From assembly GCA_905480125.1 (NCBI GenBank), contig CAJQPE010000006.1:20045-84044 (forward strand): a DNA stretch of 64,000 bases. Direction: 5' to 3'. A program made the position numbers and the translations under genes. Source of the DNA: an uncultured Flavobacteriales bacterium (lineage in GTDB: Bacteria > Bacteroidota > Bacteroidia > Flavobacteriales_G > NORP312). A model generated the notes under the pieces. It searched no databases and was not told the origin of the DNA. It worked only from the letters and a program-made list of their open reading frames with translations. Positions 23,524-32,364 of this stretch are shown piece by piece. The stretch's first letter is position 1; every line of letters starts with the position of its first letter.

Positions 23524-26500
23524 ATGAAACAGATCTTATTATTACTATTTATTTTAGTGGGTTTTAGTTGCTTAGCGCAAACACCAGAAGGAATCAACTA
23601 TCAAGCTATTGCCAGAGATAATAGTGGTGCAGAATACGTAAATACTACTCTTTCAGTTAAGTTTAGCATCAGCTCTGATGCTATAGGCGCAACAATTATT
23701 TTCACCGAAACGCACAACACTGTAGCTACGAATGATTTTGGTTTGTTCAATTTAGTTTTAGGAAATGTAAGCACTGCTGATTTTACCAATATTGACTGGA
23801 GCAACGCACCTCTTTATTTAATTGTTGAAGCCGATTTTGGGTCTGGATTTGAGCAAATGGGTAATCCCACTCCTATTGTAGCTGTACCATACGCATTATA
23901 TGCAAAAAATGTAGAAAATATTGATGATGCAGATGCAGACTCAACCAATGAGATACAAGTATTAAGTATTTCAAATGACACCATCTTTTTATCGAACGGT
24001 GGGTTTGTTCAACTGCCAGCATCAGCAAGTAGCTTATGGAATACAAATGCACAAGGAATTGATTATAGCTTAGGTAATGTTGGTATTGGAGTTTCTAACC
24101 CAGTTGTAGAGTTGGATGTCGCAGGAGAAACACAATCTAACGATGTTAGAGTCTTAAATGATTTTTACTATAACAATAATCCAGATTCTAATTATGTGTT
24201 AATGGATGATGGTGCTGGTACCGGGCATGCTATATGGCAACATCCAGATTCTTTAGGTATATCTGGTGGTGCCTTTGTTTCAAATGGAACAGAAACAGTT
24301 CTAAATAACATTGGGGATAATGTGGGGATAGGTACAAATAATCCAAATGGAGCATTACAAGTTAATGGTGTAATATCTGCTCAAAATTATGGTATTGCTG
24401 CAAAAGTTAAAGTTAAAAATGCCGGGGGTTCAGAAGGTGCTGAAACTTCTATTGGTGCTGCAACAATTATAGGTTCATATAATTTTGATGCTTGGGACCC
24501 TAGTTTTGGAGCATACAGAAGTTCTAGTAAGATAATAGGAACTACAACTACAGCTCATGGTCCTGGAGATACTCCAAGTAGAATGAGGTTTTTAACCACC
24601 CCCCAAGGAAGTACTGCCGCTGTTGAACGTTTAACCATAAATGATGATGGTAACGTAGGTATAGGAACCTCCACCCCTAATGCAAAGCTTGAAGTTTCGG
24701 AAGATATTATTGTTAATCAAATTACTATTGGTAAAGGTAGTGGAAGCATCACTAGCAACACTGCGAACGGATATCAAGCCCTTTCCATCAACACCACGGG
24801 GCAATGGAACACTGCGAACGGACATCTAGCCCTTTCCTCTAACACCTCAGGGTATTCAAACACTGCCCTTGGTAATGAAGCCCTTTCCGCGAATAGTACG
24901 GGGATATGGAACACCGCGGTTGGTGATTATGCCCTTGGGGGCAACGACACTGGAGAGAGAAATACCGCGGTTGGAGAATACGCACTTCAGGCCAGCAATG
25001 GAAATAACAACACCGCGCTTGGGCACCAGGCCCTTGTAGCTAACACTTCTGGAGATGCTAATATTGCCCTTGGGAATTACGCCTTAAATAACAATCTTTT
25101 GGGAATTAACAACACTTCTGTTGGGTTTGAGGCAGGGTATAGTGCCGCAGGCAGTAATAACCTATTTTTAGGTTACCGAGCGGGGTATAACGAAACCGGA
25201 AGTAATAAATTATATATAGAATCTGATAGTTCTTCTACTCCATTAATTTATGGTGAATTTGATAATGATATACTTAGAGTAAATGGCACATTACAAGTTG
25301 GGGATCCAACTGGTTCAGGCTATGCACTACCTACTATCGATGGTTTAAACGGTGACGTATTAACAACAGACGCTTCTGGCAACGTAACTTGGCAGCCTCC
25401 TAGCGGAGGAGGTATTGATGCAGACGGAGATCTTTGGCCTGCAGGAATGGATGCTGATGATTCAGACTTTAACGTTAAATTTCCAAGTCAAATTAATGAC
25501 TTAAACAACGATACAAAAATTCAGTTGGAAGAATCGGCTAATGAAAACATTATTCGATTTGATCTTGCAGGTACTGAAAAATGGGCAATGCACGGCAGCC
25601 GTTTAGAACCCATGAATACCGGACATTCTTTATTTATTGGACAAGGTGCTGGAGCCAATGATGACCTAACAAATAGATATAATGTACTCATTGGCGATAG
25701 TGCTGGGTATAATAATGTGATTGGTGCAGTAAACACTGCTATTGGATCGCGTTCTTTGTACGAGAACATAAATGGAGCATATAATACTGCAACTGGATTT
25801 CGCTCACTTAGTCATAATACAGAAAGTAATAATACTGCACATGGCGCTGTTTCTTTATATAAAAATATCGATGGTTTCGAGAATACCGTACAAGGTGTTG
25901 CTGCAATGTTTGAAAACACAAGTGGCAGCCAAAACACTGCTATGGGTTATTACTCTTTGTATAATAATACAAGTGGTACTAATAACACTGCTATTGGTTA
26001 CCAAGCCGGAATAAGTTCTATAGGAAATTTTAACATCTACTTAGGCTATCAAGCAGGGTATAACGAAACCGGAAGTAATAAATTATATATAGAATCTGAT
26101 AGTTCTTCTGCTCCATTAATTTATGGTGAATTTGATAATGATATACTTAGAGTTAATGGAACAGTTCAGATAAACGACCCCACCCAGACGGGTTACGTTT
26201 TACCACCTTTACGTGGTACAGCTGGACAAGTTCTCGAAACTGATGGTTTGGGAAATACCTCCTGGCAAACGCCTACGGCTGCCCCCGCCTCTTGGGAGCT
26301 TTCTGGTAATGCTGGAACCTCTACTGGAACCGATTTTATTGGCACCACAGATGCGCAGGATTTGGATATTCGAACAAACGATATTATTCACCATCGATTT
26401 ACCCAAAAAGGGCAGTTGGAGTTTCTAAACACAGGAAACTCAGTTTTTATTGGCAAAAATGCAGGTGCTAATGATGATTTAACAAACCATGAAAACGTAT

Positions 26501-27531
26501 ATATTGGGGGATTTGCGGGAAATGGAAATACAACTGGATACTCCAATGTTGCTGTTGGATTTGAAGCACTTAGAGATGTTTCGGGTCAATATGCTAACGT
26601 TGCTGTTGGATACCGGGCTCTTGCACTTACAACGAGCGGATCACAAAATGTTGCTGTGGGTACATTTGCCATTGAAAAAGGTACTGGAAGTCATAATTCT
26701 GCTTTTGGACATGGCGTGCTTAATAACAATACCAGCGGCTCACAAAACACTATAGTTGGGCATCAAGCTATGGGTAGTAACGAAGATGGGAGTTCTAACT
26801 CTGCGCTGGGGGCAGATGCTCTAAGCCAAAACATAACAGGTGAGAGTAATGTTGCTGTTGGATATGAAGCCGGTAATGCGAATATCTCCGGGAATAACAA
26901 CATTTTTATCGGGCGAGGTAGTAATGCGTCAGCTGGTAATTTAACTAATGCCAGCGCTATTGGATTCAACGTAACGGTGAGTGCAAGTAATAGCATGGTA
27001 TTAGGTAACGGAGTTAACGTAGGGATTGGGACATCTAATCCAACGGAAAAATTAGAAGTTATTGGTAACGTTACTGCAAACAGCTACCAATATAACAGCA
27101 CGCAAACGCGTGTATTTCATATAAATCCAGCAACATTAAGTCACCACTCTAGCGGAGCAACGGTTGATGGGAACAACTGGGGGGGAATTAAATTTACCGC
27201 AACATTAACAAACCGAGAAGAACTCTATTGCCCACTCCATCTGCCAGATGGAGCTGTTGTTACGGCTATAGATGTTACAGTTATTGATAATTCTCCGGGA
27301 TATTTTGTAGCATGGTTAGTACAATATCAACCTAACACTGGTCAAATCATGCAAACAACTACTCAATCAGTTAACTCAGCAGTGGAGCAAGTTATTTCAT
27401 CATCCGGCACTTCAACTATAGACAATAGTGCTAAGAGTTATATGATAGCCATCCGTGCTGAACCTGGTCTGACAAACGACGCTCATATTCAAGACATTCA
27501 AGTTACCTATACCGTAAATGAAGCTCGATAA
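23524..27531 (+). CDS. Large secreted repeat (fibre-like) protein with trimeric-adhesin-like head repeats
   Basis: A 1335-residue protein with the signal peptide MKQILLLLFILVGFSCLAQ. The next 120 residues (TPEGINYQAIARD, VPYALYAKN) are the N-terminal domain common to Bacteroidota fibre-like proteins. Four NVGIG-x3-P motifs follow. Three blocks of about 17-residue repeats of the form NTAxGxxALxxNTSG resemble YadA-like head or phage-fibre beta-rolls. Two blocks end in the same element, AGYNETGSNKLYIESDSSS. A globular domain of about 150 residues closes the protein. I see no T9SS sorting tail and no S74-type chaperone, so how it is surface-retained is unclear. Ligand binding is inference. Confidence 0.8.
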   Translation: MKQILLLLFILVGFSCLAQTPEGINYQAIARDNSGAEYVNTTLSVKFSISSDAIGATIIFTETHNTVATNDFGLFNLVLGNVSTADFTNIDWSNAPLYLIVEADFGSGFEQMGNPTPIVAVPYALYAKNVENIDDADADSTNEIQVLSISNDTIFLSNGGFVQLPASASSLWNTNAQGIDYSLGNVGIGVSNPVVELDVAGETQSNDVRVLNDFYYNNNPDSNYVLMDDGAGTGHAIWQHPDSLGISGGAFVSNGTETVLNNIGDNVGIGTNNPNGALQVNGVISAQNYGIAAKVKVKNAGGSEGAETSIGAATIIGSYNFDAWDPSFGAYRSSSKIIGTTTTAHGPGDTPSRMRFLTTPQGSTAAVERLTINDDGNVGIGTSTPNAKLEVSEDIIVNQITIGKGSGSITSNTANGYQALSINTTGQWNTANGHLALSSNTSGYSNTALGNEALSANSTGIWNTAVGDYALGGNDTGERNTAVGEYALQASNGNNNTALGHQALVANTSGDANIALGNYALNNNLLGINNTSVGFEAGYSAAGSNNLFLGYRAGYNETGSNKLYIESDSSSTPLIYGEFDNDILRVNGTLQVGDPTGSGYALPTIDGLNGDVLTTDASGNVTWQPPSGGGIDADGDLWPAGMDADDSDFNVKFPSQINDLNNDTKIQLEESANENIIRFDLAGTEKWAMHGSRLEPMNTGHSLFIGQGAGANDDLTNRYNVLIGDSAGYNNVIGAVNTAIGSRSLYENINGAYNTATGFRSLSHNTESNNTAHGAVSLYKNIDGFENTVQGVAAMFENTSGSQNTAMGYYSLYNNTSGTNNTAIGYQAGISSIGNFNIYLGYQAGYNETGSNKLYIESDSSSAPLIYGEFDNDILRVNGTVQINDPTQTGYVLPPLRGTAGQVLETDGLGNTSWQTPTAAPASWELSGNAGTSTGTDFIGTTDAQDLDIRTNDIIHHRFTQKGQLEFLNTGNSVFIGKNAGANDDLTNHENVYIGGFAGNGNTTGYSNVAVGFEALRDVSGQYANVAVGYRALALTTSGSQNVAVGTFAIEKGTGSHNSAFGHGVLNNNTSGSQNTIVGHQAMGSNEDGSSNSALGADALSQNITGESNVAVGYEAGNANISGNNNIFIGRGSNASAGNLTNASAIGFNVTVSASNSMVLGNGVNVGIGTSNPTEKLEVIGNVTANSYQYNSTQTRVFHINPATLSHHSSGATVDGNNWGGIKFTATLTNREELYCPLHLPDGAVVTAIDVTVIDNSPGYFVAWLVQYQPNTGQIMQTTTQSVNSAVEQVISSSGTSTIDNSAKSYMIAIRAEPGLTNDAHIQDIQVTYTVNEAR
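25183..25280 (+). repeat. Near-identical 98-bp direct repeat, copy 1
   Basis: It begins GGGTATAACGAAACCGG and matches copy 2 with one mismatch (A/G within TCTTCTRCTCC). The copies are 873 bases apart, a multiple of three, inside the fibre-like gene. It encodes GYNETGSNKLYIESDSSS and the following LIYGEFDNDILR. Confidence 0.93.
26056..26153 (+). repeat. Near-identical 98-bp direct repeat, copy 2
   Basis: Second copy of the repeat at 25183. The near-identity at DNA level, against much greater divergence on both sides, suggests recent duplication or gene conversion. Recombination between the copies would remove 291 codons in frame. Confidence 0.93.
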
Positions 27532-27542
27532 TCCATAAACAT

Positions 27543-28292
27543 CTGTTAATCAAAGAACTAGTCCTACATATCATTTTTTGTCTGTTAGCTTACTTTAGCT
27601 TATCCCAAAACACTCTATCACCAACTGTTGTAGCAAGTGCTGGCAACGAAGCTGCCGGTGGGGCAAGTGGTAATTCGTTTCAATATACTTTGGGTGAGAC
27701 TTTTGTTACCACACAAATAGGCACTGCAAACTCTTTTACGCAAGGGTTTCATCAGTCGTTCAATTCTGTAGTTCAAGTTATACCTTTAAAAATTGTGTTT
27801 AGCACACAAGATGCAAGCTGCACATCTTTATCTGATGGATTTATTGGTGTTGACACATTAACTGGCTGCACTCCTAGCTATATAATAACATTAAACGGCG
27901 AAGAAACGGATAGTCTTCATTTCACAAACTTAGAAGCTGGCAGCTACGATTTTTCTGTTTCAACTGATGATGGCTGCTTATTTGACACAACCATTACACT
28001 AATTAACCTTGGCGAAAATTGCGGTTTAACCTTTTACAACGCAATTTCCCCAAATGGAAATGGCCAAAATGATACATGGGTGATTAACTTGATTGAGGCG
28101 AATCCTGATAATTCGGTGCAGATTTTCAATCGCTGGGGTTCATTAGTTTGGAATGCAAATGGATATGATAATACAAACATCGTTTGGGCAGGAAATTCAA
28201 ACGCTGGCAATCCCCTGCCCGATGGAACTTACTATTATGTTGTAACAGCCAGTGAAGAAAACCATACTGGGTTTGTAGAAATAACACGTTAA
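27543..28292 (+). CDS. Small secreted protein with SprB-like repeat and CHU_C (type B) T9SS sorting domain; start codon abnormal
   Basis: The track shows only 27690-28292 from a TTG, but the same frame is open from 27522 and encodes a clear signal peptide (LVLHIIFCLLAYFSLSQ) followed by VVASAGNEAAGG, a typical start of such proteins. No ATG, GTG or TTG lies in frame upstream of 27690. I place the start at CTG 27543 (249 residues), the best in-frame option. An ATG at 27518 is one frame off and would need a +1 shift. After the N-terminal domain come an SprB-repeat-like segment (SCTSLSDGFIGVD, LEAGSYDFSVST) and a CHU_C domain (ISPNGNGQNDTWV, FNRWGSLVW, DGTYYYVVTA). The PorP/SprF gene starts 2 bases after its stop. 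Confidence 0.75.
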   Translation: MLIKELVLHIIFCLLAYFSLSQNTLSPTVVASAGNEAAGGASGNSFQYTLGETFVTTQIGTANSFTQGFHQSFNSVVQVIPLKIVFSTQDASCTSLSDGFIGVDTLTGCTPSYIITLNGEETDSLHFTNLEAGSYDFSVSTDDGCLFDTTITLINLGENCGLTFYNAISPNGNGQNDTWVINLIEANPDNSVQIFNRWGSLVWNANGYDNTNIVWAGNSNAGNPLPDGTYYYVVTASEENHTGFVEITR

Positions 28293-28293
28293 T

Positions 28294-29208
28294 TTGAAAA
28301 AAGTACTTATCATATTATGCCTGCTTGTCTCTGTTGTTTCCTTCGCTCAACAAGATTTTCAGAACAGTCAGTACATGTTCAATCTATTTTCAATAAACCC
28401 TGCCTATGCAGGAAGTAATGATGTATTGTCTGTTAACGTTTCACACAGAAGTCAATTTGTTGGTTTCGAAGGTGCACCTAACACGCAACAGTTTTCAATT
28501 CACGCACCAGTAACGAAGAAGAAAATTGGCTTAGGCCTAGAGATTACCAACGATGTTATTGGCCCTAGAAAAGTACTGGGTGTGCATACTGCTTATGCTT
28601 ACCGAGTAAAAATTGGACCCGGTCAGCTTGGTTTTGGATTAAAAGCCGGCATTTATAATTACACGTACAATTGGGATATCCTCAATTACCAAGACAATAC
28701 AGAAGACTTAATAGGAACAGGAACGGAATCAAAACTAGTACCAAACTTCAATTTTGGAATGTACTATCACGATAGAATTAATTACGCAGGTATTGAATTA
28801 GCTCATCTAAATAGCCCCAGTATCTACAGTAATGATAGCATTACCGATGTTCAAGCAAAACTATCTTCCCATGTCTCTGCCTTTGCTGGAAGAGCTTTCG
28901 AACTGAATAACAAATTGGTACTAAAACCCTCTTTCTTAGTTCGATTTGCCAAAAACGCACCTGGATATGCCGATGTAAATGTTAGCGTTTTATATAACAG
29001 AAGGTTTTGGTTAGGTGCTTCATATAGAACAAATAAAGCCCTAATTTTTATAGCGCAAGTTTACATCAACCCTAAGCTAAAGCTTGGTTATTCTTATGAC
29101 CTTTTATTAAACAAATTATCAACATATCAGGCGGGATCTCACGAATTATATCTAGGGTTTGATATAGATTTCAATAAATCAACTGCATTATCGCCAAGAT
29201 ATTTTTAA
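28294..29208 (+). CDS. PorP/SprF family type IX secretion outer-membrane protein
   Basis: A 304-residue outer-membrane protein with the signal peptide KKVLIILCLLVSVVSFAQ. It has the family hallmark NSQYMFNLFSINPAYAGS directly after cleavage, then a barrel of alternating strands. PorP/SprF proteins assist export or anchoring of type B (CHU_C) cargo and are usually encoded next to it, as here. The start is TTG at 28294, chosen because it gives a complete signal peptide 1 base past the previous stop. It abuts the OmpA gene with no gap. Confidence 0.92.
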   Translation: MKKVLIILCLLVSVVSFAQQDFQNSQYMFNLFSINPAYAGSNDVLSVNVSHRSQFVGFEGAPNTQQFSIHAPVTKKKIGLGLEITNDVIGPRKVLGVHTAYAYRVKIGPGQLGFGLKAGIYNYTYNWDILNYQDNTEDLIGTGTESKLVPNFNFGMYYHDRINYAGIELAHLNSPSIYSNDSITDVQAKLSSHVSAFAGRAFELNNKLVLKPSFLVRFAKNAPGYADVNVSVLYNRRFWLGASYRTNKALIFIAQVYINPKLKLGYSYDLLLNKLSTYQAGSHELYLGFDIDFNKSTALSPRYF

Positions 29209-32200
29209 ATGATGAGGGGGGCTAGTTTTTGTTTATTATTTCTTGCTTTTTTAACTGCCGTTGGACAGCAAAAAAAAGGAGACAAGCTCTTCGAAAAAAA
29301 ACTATACCAAAAAGCCGCAGAAGCATATATTGAAGAAATTGAAACAAACCCCAGTAACATTGCTGTATACCAGAACCTGGGAGAAACCTATGCTGCACTC
29401 CGAGACTATCCTAAAGCGGAAGAAGCCTATAAAAAAGCTCTGAATTCTGATAAATTAGGAAATGAAAAATACATTAACTACGCATTTTCCCTAATTAAAA
29501 TGGGGAGATACAATAATGCTAAACAGCAATTTAAACAATATAACTCAATAGTTAACGATAGCTTACAACATAACGAATATGTAGAATTGTGTGATTCGCT
29601 AATGGCTTGGAGCACTAGAAATCAAAAATATTCCATAAAAACAATTACTGGTATAAATACTTCGGGGTCAGAATTTGCGCCAACTCCTCATAAAAAAGGC
29701 ATACTCTATGCCGCCAATGGCAAAACAGATTGGGTAAACTATGTTTCGGATAAAGCTACCCGAAATAACTACCTAGATATTCACCTAGCAATAAAAGGAG
29801 CTGACAACTGGACTTTTTCCGAACAAGATTTACTTTCTCCTCGCCTTTCCACTACTCTACATGATGGCCCGGCAACCATAGATAATAGCGAACAAAAAAT
29901 ATATTTTACACGGTTATTCCGAACACCAAAAAAAGAAGTACTGCACATTTTTGTTGCCGAAATGAATGCCGATAAAATTCAAAAGACACAACCTTTTGAG
30001 CATAATTCAAATGAATATTCAGTCATTCATCCAGCATTTAGTGATAATAACCAACTACTATTTTTTGCAAGTAACCAACCTACCGTGAACAAAGGTGGTT
30101 TTGATATTTACTACTGCCAAAAAAAAACAGATGGAAGCTGGGCAAATCCCAAACCAATAGAAGGAGCAGTTAATTCTATTGGAAATGAACTTTTTCCGTA
30201 TTACAGTAATGGGGTACTCTACTTTTCATCGGATGGGCATTATGGATATGGTGGATTAGATCTATTTTCTTCAAAATCAGCTGACAACTATGACATTGTT
30301 ACCAACTTACACGCGCCAATTAACTCGCACGATGATGATTTTTCTATCATGTTCATAGATGATGAAAAAGGATATTTTGCATCTGACCGACCAGGAGGAA
30401 AAGGATTAGATGACATATACGGATTTGAAGCAATTGCTAGCCTAGAAAAACAACAACTGAAAACCATTTCGGGGGTATTTGAATTCAATAAACTTCCACA
30501 GGCTGGAGCTTTAATTGCCCTTTATGATGAAAATGGAGTGGAAATTATGCGATTGATTACTAACGAAAATGGATTTTATAGCTTCTCAAACCTGGAACCT
30601 GACAAGTCATATTCTATTAGGCCTATTGAAGATAATGATTATGGCGAAATTTATATTATAGATGAAGATAAGAAAAAAGTAATGTTACTTGACAAAAACG
30701 CAAGCTTCCATTTTGAGAATCTTAGCTCGGAACGAGAAAACGGCATCACGTTCATCGAAATTAACGATCCTACAATTGTTGCCAAAAAGATAAGTGGGTA
30801 TGTTTTTAAGAAAGTTAAAGGTGATTATGGAACGAGTTTAGCTGTATTCGTTTATGATGAATTGGGAAATATAATTGCCAAAACCAATACCGATAAAAAT
30901 GGTGTCTTTAGCTTCGAAACATTAAACCGAGAGCAACAATACATTGTAAAAATTGACGAGAGTGATGTTGAACTGCAAATAGAAATTGAAAGTATTTCTA
31001 AAGCTGTTAATGAAGATTTAGTTAGCATGAATGGGGTCTTCGTGCACAACAAATTACCATTGGCAGGAGAAGCAATGGCGCTTTTTAATGAAGAAGGAGT
31101 CGAAATGTTCCGGACAACCACAGATAAAAATGGTCGATTTAAATTCAGAAGTATAGCACCAGATAATAAATATAGCATTCACCCTATCAACGATATTGAA
31201 GATAGTGACCTTTTTATGACCAATGAAATTGGTCATAAAACACATTTATTGATGAAGTCTGCAGTATTCCGTTTTACAACGTTAAAATCGCAAAATATTA
31301 ACGGAATGCAATCTATAATCATAAATGATCCCGAAATGATTGCCAACCCTATCAAAGGCTATATTTATAGAACTATGAAAGGAGATTACAACGGCCAAAT
31401 GAACATCATTGTATATGATGATGCCGGAAATCTAGTTACCAGCACTACAACAAATAAACAAGGTGAATTTAATTTTGAATCGCTTGGCAAGCGAATTACT
31501 TACTTAATCCAAATTGATGAAAGTGATGGCGACTTGGTTATGGAAATAAACGGAATGCAAAAACTGGTAGAATACGGATTCACCATGCTATCTCCAGAAG
31601 AAATAGCTGAAATTATTCCAATTGATCTTGAAGACGGCTCTTTTATCTCTAAACCTTTTGGCGGATATGTTTTTCAAAAAATAAAAGGGGATTACTCCGG
31701 TCGCACTGAAATACTGGCATATGATGATCAAGGAAAAATAATCGCTAGAACCTACACAGATGAAAATGGAAATTTCACCTTCCAAAATCTTCCACCTCAA
31801 AACACTTACCTGTTTAAAGTTTTATTAGAAGATACTGATATACAATTAGGGTTTATAGATACAGAAACGCAGGAAGTTTCTCAAGTAGCTATGAATAAAA
31901 ACGGGGAATTTAATTATAAACGATTAACTAATATGCAAGAGACAATAGACATAATAAATGAAAAGGGGGTTGTTATTAAAGTCAAAAATAATGAGTTGTT
32001 TTCCAATTCTAAAATTTATTATGATTACGATAAATCGTCTTTATCCAGTCAAGCAAAAACTGAACTAGATAAACTAGTCACCATTAGTCAACAAAACCCA
32101 CATATTCTTTTTGCCCTTGGTTCGCATACAGATTCACAAGGTGAGGAACGCTACAATCTACTGTTATCTGAAAGAAGAGCAAAATCTGCGTTAGATTACC

Positions 32201-32364
32201 TCTTACAAAAAGGAGTTCAAAAATCGCAGATAAGTTTTATTGGATATGGTGAAAGTGACCCAATAATTGATGATGAAAAAATTGGTTCACTAAGCTCTGC
32301 ACTAGAGAAAGAAGCTGCACATGCTAAAAACCGCAGAACAGATATAAAAATTACTGTCAAATAA
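29209..32364 (+). CDS. PorE-like TPR / PD40 / OmpA peptidoglycan-associated protein with five regulatory-like repeats
   Basis: A 1051-residue periplasmic or outer-membrane protein with the signal peptide MMRGASFCLLFLAFLTAVGQ. TPR repeats occupy about 22-120 and WD40-like PD40 repeats (HPAFSDNNQLLFFASN, YFASDRPGGKGLDDIYGF) about 150-405. Five carboxypeptidase-regulatory-like modules span about 420-890 in the pattern A-B-A-B-B. The OmpA domain (GSHTDSQGEERYNLLLSERRA) covers the last 120 residues. PorE of the T9SS has TPR, WD40, one such module and OmpA, so this is an enlarged relative. It probably tethers the secretion or adhesin complex to peptidoglycan. Confidence 0.88.
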   Translation: MMRGASFCLLFLAFLTAVGQQKKGDKLFEKKLYQKAAEAYIEEIETNPSNIAVYQNLGETYAALRDYPKAEEAYKKALNSDKLGNEKYINYAFSLIKMGRYNNAKQQFKQYNSIVNDSLQHNEYVELCDSLMAWSTRNQKYSIKTITGINTSGSEFAPTPHKKGILYAANGKTDWVNYVSDKATRNNYLDIHLAIKGADNWTFSEQDLLSPRLSTTLHDGPATIDNSEQKIYFTRLFRTPKKEVLHIFVAEMNADKIQKTQPFEHNSNEYSVIHPAFSDNNQLLFFASNQPTVNKGGFDIYYCQKKTDGSWANPKPIEGAVNSIGNELFPYYSNGVLYFSSDGHYGYGGLDLFSSKSADNYDIVTNLHAPINSHDDDFSIMFIDDEKGYFASDRPGGKGLDDIYGFEAIASLEKQQLKTISGVFEFNKLPQAGALIALYDENGVEIMRLITNENGFYSFSNLEPDKSYSIRPIEDNDYGEIYIIDEDKKKVMLLDKNASFHFENLSSERENGITFIEINDPTIVAKKISGYVFKKVKGDYGTSLAVFVYDELGNIIAKTNTDKNGVFSFETLNREQQYIVKIDESDVELQIEIESISKAVNEDLVSMNGVFVHNKLPLAGEAMALFNEEGVEMFRTTTDKNGRFKFRSIAPDNKYSIHPINDIEDSDLFMTNEIGHKTHLLMKSAVFRFTTLKSQNINGMQSIIINDPEMIANPIKGYIYRTMKGDYNGQMNIIVYDDAGNLVTSTTTNKQGEFNFESLGKRITYLIQIDESDGDLVMEINGMQKLVEYGFTMLSPEEIAEIIPIDLEDGSFISKPFGGYVFQKIKGDYSGRTEILAYDDQGKIIARTYTDENGNFTFQNLPPQNTYLFKVLLEDTDIQLGFIDTETQEVSQVAMNKNGEFNYKRLTNMQETIDIINEKGVVIKVKNNELFSNSKIYYDYDKSSLSSQAKTELDKLVTISQQNPHILFALGSHTDSQGEERYNLLLSERRAKSALDYLLQKGVQKSQISFIGYGESDPIIDDEKIGSLSSALEKEAAHAKNRRTDIKITVK

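Follow-up and report, generated by a model that had tools for sequence, protein, structure and literature searches.

A CHU_C-domain gene whose most likely translation start is an AUC codon behind a fibre gene stop in an uncultured Flavobacteriales bacterium

Where does translation begin in a gene whose signal peptide is encoded upstream of every canonical start codon in its frame? The question is raised by a gene for a CHU_C / T9SS type B sorting-domain protein in a stretch of 64,000 nucleotides (the window), part of contig 6 in the 2.6-Mb draft genome (G000) of an uncultured Flavobacteriales bacterium. Its frame is open from 27522, following a TGA at 27519 to 27521, and closes with the TAA at 28290 to 28292. 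Upstream of the first canonical start, a TTG at 27690 to 27692, there is no ATG, GTG or TTG, and it is here that the signal peptide LLIKELVLHIIFCLLAYFSLSQ and the first part of the mature protein are encoded. The preliminary description of this DNA had reported this layout, as well as an ATG at 27518 lying in another frame, and both observations hold: the ATG opens a mini-ORF (ATG AAG CTC GAT AAT CCA TAA, plus strand, 27518 to 27538) that ends at the TAA at 27536 to 27538. The TTG at 27690 is very likely a false start, as its use would remove the signal peptide, and the out-of-frame mini-ORF, which has no counterpart in the sister species discussed below, is probably due to chance. At its C terminus the protein carries a CHU_C / T9SS type B sorting domain (Pfam CHU_C, 1.1e-25 to 1.2e-25; TIGR04131, 1.6e-15). 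With this domain, an adjoining PorP/SprF gene and the N-terminal signal peptide, judged by its pattern and by comparison with 143 signal peptides of the same genome, it has the features of a T9SS type B substrate.

The gene appears to be the intact second member of a tightly packed operon on the plus strand, in the order fibre, CHU_C, PorP/SprF and OmpA-like. The upstream gene (23524 to 27531, stop TAA at 27529 to 27531) is an ORF for a fibre-like surface protein of 1335 amino acids with the signal peptide MKQILLLLFILVGFSCLAQ, which gave only a sub-threshold match to NF053851 Bdello_MAT_N (29 bits, cut-off 60). Downstream lies a PorP/SprF family outer-membrane protein (28294 to 29208; PF11751, 2.3e-70; TIGR03519, 6.2e-81), whose TTG start at 28294 stands 1 nt past the CHU_C stop in both species. 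An OmpA-like protein with TPR and PD40 repeats follows, starting directly past the PorP stop (29209 to 32364; Pfam OmpA, 1.7e-16), and its scores against NF053607 and PorE-family models fell under their cut-offs. Each of the three genomes of the genus considered here (G000, G001 and G002) holds about 12 to 16 PorP/SprF-like matches, and several of those genes that we examined stand directly behind CHU_C-type genes.

The same operon is found in a sister species of the genus (G001), whose CHU_C protein is 88% identical. This was the only close relative in a scan of the genome contig collection, giving two close alleles in all; none was found in the viral contig collection, and the third genome of the genus (G002) holds no close copy of the gene. 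The start region could thus be compared in a close relative, as the preliminary description had proposed. In the sister the TAA of the fibre gene is followed directly by GTT ATC AAA AAG CTA ATT TTA CAT ATT, and the CHU_C frame runs for 48 codons without a canonical start. DNA identity between the two species is about 52% at 27541 to 27600, rises to 80-93% up to 27840 and reaches about 98% from there to the end of the gene. Because the 5' end is so divergent while most of the gene is nearly identical, the two 5' alleles are, on this comparison, old and independent. Synonymous sites in the first 20 codons are saturated (11.2/12.7), yet about one residue in two is the same there; over the whole gene dN/dS is 0.28, and the frame is intact across 247 codons in both species. 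Judged from these substitutions, the signal peptide has been preserved as protein through a long divergence, with neither allele having a canonical start.

A near-cognate codon, ATC, is conserved at the expected position in the two alleles compared. This ATC (window 27549 to 27551; sister L002:1522), followed by AAA, is the most upstream codon that they share, and all earlier positions differ. A start here would give a protein of 247 amino acids (27549 to 28292) whose 20-residue signal peptide is (M)KELVLHIIFCLLAYFSLSQ (27549 to 27608), homologous to (M)KKLILHIAFCFIGFDVFSQ in the sister. The index from start to Q would be 19, within the mode of 18-23 among 143 signal-peptide genes of the genome, where the commonest second residue is K. 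We also scored upstream context with a matrix built from the 20 bases before the starts of these 143 genes, with the CHU_C gene left out. The matrix shows a peak of A around -10 to -12, and the A-rich context of genome starts fits what is known of Flavobacteria, in which starts are chosen without Shine-Dalgarno pairing and with the help of upstream adenines (PMC6847099). The ATC at 27549 scores 3.15 bits, ranking first of 27 in-frame codons, at the 98th percentile of the background and the 72nd of true starts. The sister ATC, at 3.28, is the best near-cognate codon of its frame, with the non-near-cognate AAG and GCC scoring higher. Conservation and context are the reasons for preferring ATC over other near-cognate codons, and AUC at 27549 is, from the sequence comparison, the most likely translation start.

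Two other near-cognate codons in the window would give a longer signal peptide. CTG is a common near-cognate codon, and from the CTG at 27543 to 27545 the length of the signal peptide (index 21) would fit; the ATA at 27528 to 27530 overlaps the fibre stop by four bases as ATAA, which resembles ATGA, the commonest coupled arrangement (PMC10666635). Neither is present in the sister, however, where the position aligned with the CTG is the TAA stop of the fibre gene itself. Their contexts score -0.06 bits (CTG) and -0.32 bits (ATA) against 3.15 for the ATC, and a signal peptide beginning at the ATA would be longer than all but a few of the 143 in the genome. A start at one of these codons is unlikely, though not negligible. 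Of the options listed in the preliminary description, a rare start with coupling to the stop of the fibre gene is the one left standing, most likely at the ATC and not at the CTG.

Explanations that do not involve a near-cognate start fare worse. The gene could have lost its start by frameshift or as a pseudogene and be silent or on its way out, and it does lack a canonical start that its distant homologues have. We think this improbable, as the intact frame and low dN/dS in both species, a signal peptide retained through saturated synonymous change and an intact downstream operon all speak against decay. Deletion of a normal start by a sequencing or assembly error could be suspected, since neither genome is finished (112 contigs and about 270 contigs), but two independent errors would be required, because the diverged allele has no canonical start either; such an artifact is very improbable indeed. 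The sister allele is deeply diverged in this region, has a different fibre end and no equivalent of the ATG at 27518, and still has no canonical start, which contradicts the frameshift, phase variation and sequencing indel considered in the preliminary description; no single-base error that would bring back an ATG frame was seen, and to judge by this comparison one is excluded. That neither of two diverged alleles has a canonical start likewise argues against a frameshift of recent origin and against phase variation at a simple repeat. As remote as an assembly error is ribosomal frameshifting or stop readthrough into the CHU_C frame, from the fibre gene or from the ATG at 27518. Fibre and CHU_C do share one frame in the sister with a single TAA between them, and a +1 shift from the ATG would enter the frame in the window. 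Yet each species would need its own mechanism, readthrough in one and a change of frame in the other, the ATG is missing in the sister, and a fusion protein with an internal signal peptide would make little sense.

We consider it reasonably probable, though well short of assured, that the whole explanation is an intact CHU_C gene with an AUC start behind the fibre stop, aided by reinitiation and giving low output. We infer that the four genes would be transcribed as an operon and that the AUC at 27549 would be read as fMet by initiator tRNA, probably with the aid of ribosomes fresh from termination at the fibre stop. The product would carry a Sec signal peptide of 20 residues at its N terminus and a T9SS type B signal at its C terminus, and the weak start would keep it scarce relative to the products of its neighbors. 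Against this reading stands the great weakness of near-cognate starts in E. coli, where ATT works at about 0.3% of ATG (quoted in PMC10666635). The short distance from the fibre stop to the ATC, 3 nt in the sister and 17 nt in the window, suggests coupling, which makes translational linkage of CHU_C to the fibre plausible. Reinitiation in E. coli falls steeply by about 14-20 nt, and the gap in the window is near the limit measured in E. coli and Haloferax (PMC10666635), so that coupling there may be weak. Folding of the RNA across the fibre/CHU_C junction was unremarkable (z 1.05 and -0.68).

How rare would such a start be in this genome? We scanned 1.93 Mb (73%) of it, comprising 1425 gene calls and 228 signal-peptide genes with a canonical start. 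Five frames in the scanned part have a signal-peptide pattern before their first canonical start, and CHU_C is the only clear signal-peptide gene among them, which makes its layout more than a product of chance; the other four were judged false or of another kind. One of these four is a candidate AUC-start glycosyltransferase (contig 94 of G000, L137:13834-14952, minus strand), whose frame opens at an ATC (context score 3.64) 5 nt past the TAA of the preceding gene and has no canonical start ahead of its conserved GG motif. No orthologue was found in the genomes of the order that were searched. A scan for other genes with late canonical starts returned mostly broken frames or ordinary ATG starts. 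Frames that lack a proper start and look broken or fragmentary were seen at L050 (about 2558, minus strand), L113 (about 3943, minus strand), L052 (about 15613) and L062 (about 2046, minus strand), and by eye these are SusC-like, CotH-like, a glycosyltransferase and M48-like. Against an AUC start we count the homologues: in all 37 distant homologues examined, some of them read by eye where the signal-peptide pattern had missed them, the signal peptide is preceded by a canonical start. The closest CHU_C paralogue in the same genome starts with ATG. A search of the literature on AUC or ATC start codons returned mainly mitochondrial genomes and a few bacterial or archaeal papers.

Among the closest known likenesses, and present in this genome, is infC, the gene for IF3, which is autoregulated in other bacteria. 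The infC genes (L144, L145 and L146) lack a canonical start as well, with ATT in G000 and G001 and ATA in G002, and are a case of a near-cognate AUH start kept in evolution. They retain a Shine-Dalgarno AGGAGG upstream, whereas CHU_C is a surface protein without one. The infC motif stands in a phylum otherwise without Shine-Dalgarno sequences. Since the infC ATT and the glycosyltransferase ATC occur in the same genome as CHU_C, we count them as support for an AUC start.

Outside this lineage, sigR of Streptomyces resembles CHU_C in having a non-canonical start in a translationally coupled operon, where its GTC start is repressed by IF3, lowering one product relative to its neighbor (PMC5472188). 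The start codon there is GUC and not AUC, and the product is a regulator and not a secreted protein. In E. coli, high IF3 lowers both non-canonical initiation and reinitiation (PMC2268962). By analogy with infC and sigR, IF3 might control CHU_C as well, and we offer this as a hypothesis only, while for sigR the effect is shown. With its proposed start 3-17 nt past the preceding stop, CHU_C resembles gene pairs coupled by termination and reinitiation (PMC10666635, PMC2268962), but in most known pairs the genes overlap by 1 or 4 nt and use ATG, GTG or TTG, and the 17 nt of the window is long by comparison. In its signal peptide, C-terminal domain and adjoining PorP/SprF gene, CHU_C matches other pairs of T9SS type B substrate and PorP/SprF protein, and differs from the homologues examined in its start codon.

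The two species are otherwise similar, but their fibre tips are wholly different and the first codons of CHU_C very diverged (window 26150-27600 against sister L031 5390-5915). Over this stretch the two DNA sequences are unrelated or can barely be aligned, and similarity returns only inside CHU_C. The sister tip carries a Peptidase_S74 chaperone domain, and the last 153 residues of the window fibre matched no Pfam family. A donor of the window tip was sought in its own genome and in the sister, and none was found. Fibre tips have probably been exchanged between species, to judge from this boundary, up to and into the next gene.

The CHU_C gene draws attention to this region of apparent exchange. 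That the lineage keeps a small class of genes with AUC or other near-cognate starts behind upstream stops, whose expression would be low, tuned by IF3 and tied to the upstream gene, is a doubtful extension. If the AUC start is true, a gene caller that admits only ATG, GTG and TTG would place the CHU_C start at 27690, depriving a secreted surface protein of its signal peptide, and other such genes may go unnoticed elsewhere. Two species would then have kept an AUC start in a phylum in which ribosomes initiate without depending on Shine-Dalgarno pairing, and the gene would offer a useful test of start codon choice by these ribosomes.
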